Shown here: one piece after another, positions 421-8,508 of the stretch
How the letters are laid out: each line of letters starts with the position of its first letter
Numbering within the stretch: position 1 is the first letter of the stretch
Translations under genes and position numbers: made by a program
Source of the DNA: a bacterium
GTDB taxonomy: Bacteria; DYJV01; JALVYZ01
Reading direction: 5' to 3'
Assembly (NCBI GenBank): GCA_027037705.1
Contig: JALVYZ010000154.1
Coordinates: forward strand, 1-13,230
Length of the DNA: 13,230 bases
Notes under the pieces: model-generated
What the model was told of the DNA's origin: nothing
Seen by the model: only the letters and a program-made list of their open reading frames with translations
Databases searched by the model: none

Positions 421-571
421 GCAGAAAAGAAGTTAGTTAAAGGTTTGTTGAGGTTAGTTAAGGTTAGTGAATTAAAATTAATAAACTATAAATAACAACA
501 AATTACTATTAATTACAATAAATAACAAAATTAATTTTCGCATTTACTCATTATCGCATTTACGCATTTAC
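421..571 (+). repeat. Mosaic of short tandem blocks, copy A (between dctP and dctQ)
   Basis: This non-coding patch fills most of the 216-nt dctP-dctQ gap. Three blocks follow one another. First, GTTAGTT-like words start at 432, 443, 453 and 463 (about 10.3-nt period). Second, five 10-nt units of the AATAAC/AATTAC type run over 481-530. Third, four 8-nt units of the GCATTTAC type run over 540-571 (the second is TCATTATC). Exact words are shared, as reverse complement, with the patch at 7138-7461: a 19-mer at 447-465, a 16-mer at 511-526 and a 12-mer at 556-567, in the same order. The dctQ ribosome binding site follows directly. I see no gene or promoter here. Confidence 0.8.
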
Positions 572-6856: not shown

Positions 6857-7114
6857 CTATTTTTTAGCTTTGTTAACAGCTTCAATCATAAAATCAAGTC
6901 CCTTAAATACAATTCCTTTAAAATCATCAAGAGCTTTTTGGGTAGAATTTAACCATTCTTCATAAAGTTTTGCAACTTCTTCATTGTTTGGTAATGGTGC
7001 TTGCTTCAAAAACATTTCTACTAATTTCTTTTGCTGTTCAGTAATAAGCTTAAAATTATCAAAAGCTAACTCATATACATTTTTTAAGTTTTCAAAAATT
7101 TTTTCATTTACCAT
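6857..7114 (-). CDS. Small phasin-like protein 1
   Basis: The product is 85 residues from the ATG at 7114. An in-frame GTG at 7123 would add three residues, but that GTG is itself part of the ribosome binding site AGGAGGTGA (7120-7128), so ATG is the better start. The sequence is helical and amphipathic (FENLKNVYELAFDNFKLITE, later WLNSTQKALDDFKGIVFKGL) and clearly homologous to the following gene, implying a tandem duplication. By position behind phaC it is probably a granule-associated phasin, shorter than the commonly described phasins. It is separated from phaC by a roughly 350-nt repeat patch, so its expression may be partly uncoupled from the synthase. Confidence 0.75.
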   Translation of the reverse strand: MVNEKIFENLKNVYELAFDNFKLITEQQKKLVEMFLKQAPLPNNEEVAKLYEEWLNSTQKALDDFKGIVFKGLDFMIEAVNKAKK

Positions 7115-7137
7115 GGCTTTCACCTCCTATTTTTTTT

Positions 7138-7461
7138 GGTTATGCGAATATGCGTAAATGCATAAAAAATGTTATTTATTGTAATTCATAGTTTTCAATA
7201 AGTGTTAGTGTTAGTGATGGTATGAGTTTTGTTATTCATGGTTATTTGTAGTAATTTATAGTTATTAATAGTTATTAAAGTTATTCATTGTTATATCGTT
7301 TTTCATTTTTCATTAAATAATGACTTCCGACTCTGCACTCCAGACTCCAGACTTTTACAACCTTAACTAACCTCAACTAACTTCTAACTAACCTACAACT
7401 AACATTAACTAACCTTTTATCGTCTATCACCCAAACATCCTTCAGCCTTCCGCCTTCTACC
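7138..7461 (-). repeat. Mosaic of short tandem blocks, copy B (between phaC and phasin 1)
   Basis: This patch fills the 350-nt gap; I see no gene in it. Read in plus coordinates it holds these blocks. 8-nt units GGTTATGC, GAATATGC, GTAAATGC at 7138-7161. 10-nt units of the GTTATTTATT type at 7171-7200 and 7231-7298 (one unit 9 nt). Two GTGTTA hexamers at 7202-7213. A 7-nt block with CTCCAGA twice at 7338-7351. Five AACTAAC words starting at 7365, 7375, 7386, 7397 and 7407 (mean 10.5 nt). A 7-nt block TTCAGCC, TTCCGCC, TTCTACC at 7441-7461. The 7-nt blocks and hexamers are not present in copy A (421-571). The words shared with copy A lie at 7359-7377 (19 nt), 7171-7186 (16 nt) and 7150-7161 (12 nt). 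Confidence 0.85.
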
Positions 7462-7473
7462 TTTGTTTTTGTA

Positions 7474-8508
7474 TTATTTGCTTCTTTCCTGCAGCCATTT
7501 TGCAACTGTTGGCGCAAGTTCTTTTTGAGAACGAGAGCTAACATAAATTCCAATATGTCCTCCTGGGAAAGCTATCATCTGCTTATCTTTTGAACCTACA
7601 AGATCATTTAAAGGTTTTGTTGATGCAGGTGGAACAAGATGGTCTTGCTCAGCATAAATTGTTAATATTGGCATTGTTATTTTCTTTAAATCTACTTTTC
7701 TTCCACCAAGTTCAAATTCTCCCTTTACCAGTTTATTTTCCTGATAAAGGTCTTTTATAAATTTTCTCCAAGTTTCTCCAGGTTGATCAGGACTATCAAA
7801 TATCCATTTTTCCATTCTTATGAAATTTTTTACTGTTTCAAGTTCATTGGCACCTTTTATAAAATTATAATACTTTTCAAAATTTAATTGAAATGGCTTA
7901 AGCATTAAGTATCCAAAATTCATAAAATCTCCAGATATATTACCAAAAGCATCTACCATTTCATCTGCATCTAAATATTTTGACCAGACATTTAAAAGTC
8001 CATCTTCTGTATCAAAATCTACTGGAGTAACCATAGTAACTAAATTTTTTATTTTTTCAGGATACAAAGCAGTATATATAACAGAAAATGTTCCTCCCTG
8101 ACATACTCCAAGAAGATTAATTTTATCTAATTTATGTTTTTCTCTAATAAAATCAACGCAATCATTCATATAACCATCAATATGATCCTCCATAGTTAAG
8201 TATCGATCTGCTCTTTCAGGATAACCCCAGTCAATCAAATATACATCTATCCCTTCCTCAATTAATCTTTTTATAAAACTTCTATCTTCCTGGAGGTCCA
8301 TCATATAATATCTATTAACAAGCGCATAAACAATTAACAGAGGCACTGGACATTTTTTTCTTTTATTTGATTTATAGTGATATAATTTTGCTTTATTATC
8401 TAATTTTAAAACTGTTTCTTTTGGAGTAGGTTCAACATCTATTTCCTCTATTTGATTAAGGAAATCATTCAGTTTCATCATATTGTAAAAAAAGTTAAAA
8501 GTACTCAT
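7474..8508 (-). CDS. phaC: Class III poly(3-hydroxyalkanoate) synthase subunit PhaC
   Basis: The 344-residue alpha/beta-hydrolase-fold protein polymerises (R)-3-hydroxyacyl-CoA into PHA on the granule surface. The modified lipase box GVCQGG (134-139) gives catalytic Cys136; Asp289 in AEQDHLVPP and His318 in PGGHIG complete the triad. The spacings Cys-Asp 153 and Asp-His 29 equal those of the Allochromatium vinosum class III enzyme (Cys149, Asp302, His331). Length under 400 residues and the adjacent phaE gene fit class III rather than class I or II. The ATG at 8508 follows the strong site AGGAGGTGAT (8514-8523), 17 nt after the phaE stop. All key residues are present, so activity is expected. 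Confidence 0.96.
   Translation of the reverse strand: MSTFNFFYNMMKLNDFLNQIEEIDVEPTPKETVLKLDNKAKLYHYKSNKRKKCPVPLLIVYALVNRYYMMDLQEDRSFIKRLIEEGIDVYLIDWGYPERADRYLTMEDHIDGYMNDCVDFIREKHKLDKINLLGVCQGGTFSVIYTALYPEKIKNLVTMVTPVDFDTEDGLLNVWSKYLDADEMVDAFGNISGDFMNFGYLMLKPFQLNFEKYYNFIKGANELETVKNFIRMEKWIFDSPDQPGETWRKFIKDLYQENKLVKGEFELGGRKVDLKKITMPILTIYAEQDHLVPPASTKPLNDLVGSKDKQMIAFPGGHIGIYVSSRSQKELAPTVAKWLQERSK

Follow-up and report, generated by a model that had tools for sequence, protein, structure and literature searches.

Heptamer repeats in bacterial intergenic spacers have been reported piecemeal, from Xanthomonas, Nostoc, Beggiatoaceae and Geobacter, and have no agreed function. The window considered here, a 13,230-nt stretch of bacterial DNA (assembly GCA_027037705.1, contig JALVYZ010000154.1), contains two patches made up of short tandem blocks, which raises the question whether these are copies of one unusual element or members of a wider class, and what they might do in the cell. 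The original prediction placed the patches at 421-571 and 7138-7461 on opposite strands, and the coordinates and flanking genes bear this out: the first lies on the + strand and the second on the - strand, each oriented with its flanking genes. The natural unit of both, however, is the whole intercistronic spacer rather than the patch (385-600 and 7124-7473). No structured RNA family in Rfam 15 matched the window at the gathering score.

The first spacer (385-600, +), delimited by ORF calls and inspection of the printed spacer, separates a truncated upstream ORF (1-384), which from its context is probably a TRAP substrate-binding subunit, from a TRAP permease-like small ORF (601-1077). By word positions, its left arm (432-469, +) consists of GTTAGTT/GTTAGTG words with a 10-11 nt period, starting at 432, 453 and 463, with a degenerate GTTTGTT copy near 443, and a tandem repeat scan returned 432-468 with period 10. 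The right arm has two parts on the same strand: four AATWAC words at an exact 10-nt period (491, 501, 511 and 521; 491-526; tandem repeat 484-528, period 10), and CGCAT/CTCAT 8-mers at 539, 547, 555 and 563 (539-571; tandem repeat 534-571, period 8), 3' of which come the ribosome-binding region and the ATG at 601. A terminator-like hairpin, CCGAGCACCT...AGGTGCTCGG, occupies 391-417 of the window; similar hairpins lie at L026 ~20195-20225 and L139:18380-18453, and this is another dispersed element, present in several spacers and sometimes 5' of arrays.

The second spacer (7124-7473, -), delimited in the same way, runs from a PhaC-like synthase ORF (7474-8508, -), whose relatives in named genomes reach at most 66% identity and come from mixed taxa, to a small ORF (6857-7123, -). 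Reading along the - strand, its left arm comprises three GAAGG heptamer units (GAAGGCGGAAGGCTGAAGG; 7439-7457, tandem repeat 7439-7457, period 7), five GTTAGTT words spaced 10-11 nt apart (7365-7413; tandem repeat 7359-7415, period 10) and GGAGTNN heptamers (GGAGTCTGGAGTGCAGAGT; 7330-7348, tandem repeat 7337-7353, period 7). ATGAAAA heptamers (7300-7313; tandem repeat 7299-7314) are followed by a right arm of six AATWAC words at 9-10 nt (7231-7285; tandem repeat 7231-7294, period 10), a CACTAACAC hexamer block (7202-7216; tandem repeat 7201-7216, period 6), a second AATTAC...AATAAC pair (7170-7186) and GCAT 8-mers at 7158, 7150 and 7142 (7142-7161), after which comes AGGAGG at 7123-7128.

Exact 19-, 16- and 12-mers had been described as shared between the patches in the same order. 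The order, the 19-mer (447-465 and 7359-7377) and the 12-mer (556-567 and 7150-7161) stand, while the 16-mer is in fact a 17-mer (511-527 and 7170-7186, the latter being the second AATTAC...AATAAC pair); in 300 dinucleotide-shuffled pairs the longest shared word averaged 8.9 nt and never exceeded 13. The word order recurs elsewhere as anticipated: all five sampled spacers with the three words carry them in the claimed order, and 24 of 25 pairwise word orders agree in the sampled part of the genome. This consistency supports the idea of one element family or one generating process. The picture of a single three-word mosaic, on the other hand, does not hold, as the second patch also contains GAAGG, GGAGT, ATGAAAA and CACTAACAC blocks, and a spacer may combine any of the word types, which number at least nine.

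How far this population extends was addressed in the draft genome (2.05 Mb in 496 contigs), about 540 kb of which was read as contigs, 304 kb of it picked without regard to motif; gene boundaries came from simple ORF calls and the word list was made by hand. Word counts equal to those of random sequence had been named as the outcome that would speak against the claim, and over the whole genome we found 13 occurrences of GTTAGTTAAGG against 1 of its reversed-pattern control, 20 against 0 for GTTAGTTNNNGTTAGTT, 42 against 2 for AATAACNNNNAATAAC and 37 against 4 for GCATNNACGCATNNACGCAT. In the unselected contigs, arrays were present in 12 of the 37 co-directional spacers with a length of 60 bp or above, compared with 1 of 37 when these were read backwards, in 2 of 15 divergent spacers and in 1 of 1609 coding tiles; in a larger, partly motif-selected set, 60 of 120 co-directional spacers contained them. 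The units share one design, a core of 4-7 nt recurring at an exact period of 6, 7, 8 or 10 nt with a variable linker of 2-4 nt. In the sampled genome, period 7 is used by GGAGT (68 cases), GAAGG (25) and ACGAA (13), while GCAT has period 8 (74), AATWAC 10 (53), GTTAGTT 10 (16) or 11 (8), and AACAC 6 (24), in accordance with the periods first noted for the window (GTTAGTT about 10.5, AATAAC/AATTAC 10 and 8-nt words). Both patches are thus members of a population of short, strand-oriented tandem arrays that is genome-wide, specific to the lineage and located at co-directional gene junctions. A few arrays sit in divergent spacers (L125:1792-2125, L137:962-1151 and L031:4966-5072), where they are single hairpins or one arm only. 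Strain polymorphism exposed at contig breaks was considered and rejected, since array sequence was not significantly enriched at contig ends (2 of 132 tiles against 11 of 1417, p 0.31). Contigs C62 and C394 share a stretch of exactly 127 nt at their ends (the end of L250 and the start of L125); it lies inside an array and is apparently an overlap that the assembly graph left unresolved.

The arrays follow transcription. Among 52 co-directional spacers with strand-specific words, orientation agrees with the genes in 49 (binomial p about 1e-11). In six contigs, the window included, arrays lie next to genes of either direction, and five of the six have every array following its gene; contig strand therefore does not decide orientation, and replication-strand orientation was rejected on the same grounds. 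Placement within the spacer is equally regular. Median distances after the stop codon are 12 nt for GAAGG, 17 for GGAGT, 22 for ATGCG and 56 for GTTAGTT, and median distances before the next start are 36 nt for AACAC, 49 for CGCAT and 97 for AATAAC. The layout rule is accordingly that G-rich words lie 3' of the stop codon and C-rich, often complementary, words lie 5' of the ribosome-binding site of the next gene.

Several left and right words are reverse complements, and three such pairs tend to occur in the same spacer: ATGCG/CGCAT (odds ratio 9.3, nominal p 0.001), GGAGT/ACTCC (9.2, nominal p 0.03) and GGCTATAGG/CCTATAGCC (17, nominal p 0.04). GTTAGTT and AATAAC, which can pair only imperfectly, also co-occur (odds ratio 4, nominal p 0.03), whereas the unmatched word pairs that were checked showed no excess (p 0.08-0.99). 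Long bulged hairpins are predicted for fourteen spacers with matched arms, among them L252:1787-1881 and L256:4205-4317. In these, cores are paired at 160 of 165 positions and linkers at 22 of 49; as the spacers were chosen by exact cores, core pairing is partly built in, and the informative figure is the near-random pairing of the linkers. Spacers with modules had a mean fold z of -1.82, compared with -0.59 for those without. Folding of the antisense strand is comparable (mean z -2.40; MFE -35.1 against -38.0 for sense), and a comparison of sense and antisense folds for an RNA-specific wobble signature gave no clear difference. Since the antisense strand is equally structured, the folding data cannot separate RNA from DNA. 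Predicted accessibility of the ribosome-binding site was slightly higher with the modules in place than with a shuffled spacer (0.576 against 0.550, p 0.03), and spacers without modules showed no such gain over their shuffled counterparts.

The linkers also bear on the age of the arrays. Identical neighbouring linkers were observed 2 times against 6.4 expected for GGAGT, 2 against 2.2 for AATWAC and 14 against 9.6 for ATGNG (p 0.08). Because neighbouring units share linkers no more than chance, the arrays are not freshly slipped copies, and simple slippage, which would give alike neighbours, was rejected. So was recent inverted duplication, which would give complementary linkers. Either the arrays are old, with drifted linkers and cores that were held, or the generating process itself varies the linkers. 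For comparison within the order we used one genome, G001, and 0 of 65 co-directional spacers in the 277 kb of it that were scanned contained such words. At eight orthologous junctions the spacers measure 91-256 nt with arrays in our genome and have gaps of -4 to 71 nt in G001 (median 13.5), while at 15 orthologous junctions without arrays the median gaps are 6 and 18 nt in the two genomes. The eight include the nuoB-nuoC and nuoC-nuoD-like junctions and all lie outside the window, whose TRAP subunit has matches of only 26-30% in G001. As the G001 junctions are short and free of arrays, either this lineage acquired arrays within operons or the other one lost them.

Related layouts occur outside this lineage. 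Four consecutive GGAGTNN units were found in 23 of 386 genomes and, by the tally of the tool, in 22 of 327 genera from many families, although the reversed control, too, has matches in some of these genomes, which means that not every hit is meaningful. The outside cases shown are mostly near-perfect copies such as (GGAGTCA)n, unlike the variable-linker units described here. In four genomes (G336, G228, G171 and G370) we recognized by eye G-rich arrays with the complementary array after them, located between genes or 5' of a ribosome-binding site. At L286:2457-2733 of the unrelated genome G171, 8-nt GAGTT units precede complementary AACTC units directly before AGGAGG, the same layout with a different word. 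Taking other phyla together, among the arrays closest to an upstream gene 8 share its strand and 1 has the opposite one, but 14 of 34 arrays lie inside crude ORF calls, so that a gene-following orientation is no more than suggested there. Near position 1500 of L240 (G171), an ORF call contains a (GGAGTCA)n array across which the flanking frame appears to continue; this array is apparently tolerated within a gene. Near position 1500 of L246 (G066), another ORF call contains a near-perfect hairpin made of four GAGTCTG units and, after them, four GACTCTT units.

What, then, are the arrays for? REP-type intercistronic hairpins act on mRNA decay or processing, or uncouple the translation of neighbouring genes. 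Our best guess, held at a little under even confidence, is that the arrays likewise act at the mRNA level, as hairpins between cistrons. In a polycistronic mRNA, the left array would pair with the right one in any register and give a bulged stem between the two cistrons, leaving the ribosome-binding site outside. We infer that such arrays are transcribed and fold in vivo, and that the likely effect would be on mRNA decay or processing, or on the uncoupling of translation between neighbouring genes. They may have arisen and grown at tight operon junctions through slippage or strand switching of the DNA, and would then have been retained with their cores kept and their linkers free to drift. On the side of this model are the orientation and placement of the arrays, the complementary arms of some spacers and the scarcity of arrays in divergent spacers and in coding DNA. 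The stronger folding of spacers with modules, the slight gain in accessibility of the ribosome-binding site and the linkers, which neighbouring units do not share beyond chance, also speak for it. Against it count the GGAGT arrays, which are without an ACTCC partner in 19 of 24 spacers, the equally good folding of the antisense strand and the imperfect match of GTTAGTT with AATAAC.

The main rival to the hairpin model is neutral slippage at the DNA level combined with a strand bias that comes from transcription. Slippage of the polymerase and strand switching templated by hairpins would leave functionless tandem and inverted arrays where selection is weak, as at operon junctions, and orientation would come from a transcription-linked bias such as a G-rich non-template strand or R-loops behind the stop codon. 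We regard this as a real possibility, though one that we do not expect to be correct. It is favoured by the many arms without a partner, by the folding of the antisense strand, by the array-free genome of the same order, which implies quick gain or loss, and by the scattered phylogeny of the class, although several of the genomes concerned match the reversed control as well; the near-perfect outside copies are typical of slippage, and no function was found for the Xanthomonas/Nostoc class (PMC4692102). It is opposed by the linkers: adjacent ones resemble each other no more than linkers drawn at random from this genome, and those of opposing arms pair near chance while the cores match, which is unexpected for recent slipped or inverted copies in the absence of core selection.

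Invariant cores, variable linkers and exact periods would also suit sites bound by a protein that reads repeats or acts as a multimer on RNA or DNA (S1, CSD, CsrA-like or a nucleoid protein); the core would then be the recognized word, and the period would set the spacing. The left words contain GGA, and for the TAACTGA heptamers that precede start codons in Beggiatoaceae such a role has been proposed (PMC4679880). With at least nine unrelated cores, four periods and many words that are reverse complements of each other, many proteins would however be needed, and we consider this explanation improbable. Still less credible is that a transposase has spread a single mobile miniature element (MITE, REP/REPIN or SDR-like) to all these sites. 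The arrays are dispersed, intergenic and tend to be palindromic, and the window patches have 12-19-mers in common, but they lack a common full-length sequence and fixed ends, module content differs from spacer to spacer, and the shared words are just recurrent units. Chance low-complexity sequence, for which the short words and the AT-richness of the genome might speak, is refuted by the reversed-pattern controls, both in the whole-genome counts and in the 12 of 37 spacers with arrays, and we give it practically no weight.

A broader reading goes further. A process or system, so far unrecognized and widely but patchily distributed, might write complementary, core-conserved pairs of micro-repeats into tight operon junctions, the G-rich word after the stop and its complement ahead of the following start, where they would act as RNA hairpins; layout rather than sequence would then be selected, because comparable layouts were seen by eye in G171, G228, G336 and G370 although the words change from phylum to phylum. 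We consider this broader proposal speculative and rather unlikely. The genome provides a rich natural data set, with arrays of several unit lengths in about one third of the sampled co-directional spacers, an array-free relative, and orthologous junctions of core operons (nuo-type genes) that do or do not contain arrays. Two questions become testable with it: are such arrays selected as RNA hairpins, and is a unit length of seven special, as polymerase-slippage models propose?

Among known systems, the STRR repeats of cyanobacteria are known mainly as heptamers; they resemble our arrays in being short, tandem, dispersed and intergenic, whereas several unit lengths are used here. Closest in placement are the intergenic heptamers described by Rehm et al. 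in 2015 (PMC4692102), GGGAATC in Xanthomonas and GGGGA(T/C)T in Nostoc, which have a core-plus-variable form (GGGANTN) and lie mostly between co-oriented and rarely between divergent genes. Immediately after stop codons the G-rich strand of these repeats coincides with the coding strand, and immediately before starts with the non-coding one; Xanthomonas has 70-75 inverted pairs, and no replication-strand preference was seen. Our arrays share with this class the short, exactly periodic intergenic units and the G-rich sense words near stops with complements near starts. They differ in that the class has one word of seven nucleotides, whereas we find at least nine words with periods of 6, 7, 8 and 10 nt, several of them per spacer, and in that those repeats are G-quadruplex-capable, while the dominant cores here (GTTAGTT, ATGCG, GGAGT and GAAGG) have no GGG run. 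A fixed-order mosaic unlike anything known, as originally supposed, is therefore too strong a description: a rule is shared rather than an element and, as the placement rule is already published, the patches are better seen as a variant of the STRR class that is richer in unit types. The nearest precedent for stems with paired cores and free linkers is the P6b stem of the Nostoc tRNA-Leu(UAA) intron (PMC4476775), where Class I TDNGATT and Class II NNTGAGT heptamers, with degenerate positions within the unit, ensure correct pairing; repeats were gained on both sides of the stem, and most single-nucleotide variation of Class II falls in unpaired regions. That case, however, is a single intron stem with one unit length and is not intercistronic. 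The TAACTGA direct repeats of Beggiatoaceae (MacGregor 2015; PMC4679880) form many oriented intergenic arrays just upstream of start codons, have a scattered phylogeny and were proposed to act post-transcriptionally in translational regulation, but, unlike the arrays here, they consist of one perfect heptamer with almost no inverted partner (one indirect repeat). In Geobacter metallireducens (PMC2700814), four-unit GGACCGG heptamer elements in 49 dispersed copies, predicted to be regulatory, are short and tandem like ours but represent one fixed element and also occur inside genes. The phenomenon is thus known in part, as oriented heptamers and hairpin pairs; new here are the mixed unit lengths, the core/linker pattern and the density of the arrays.
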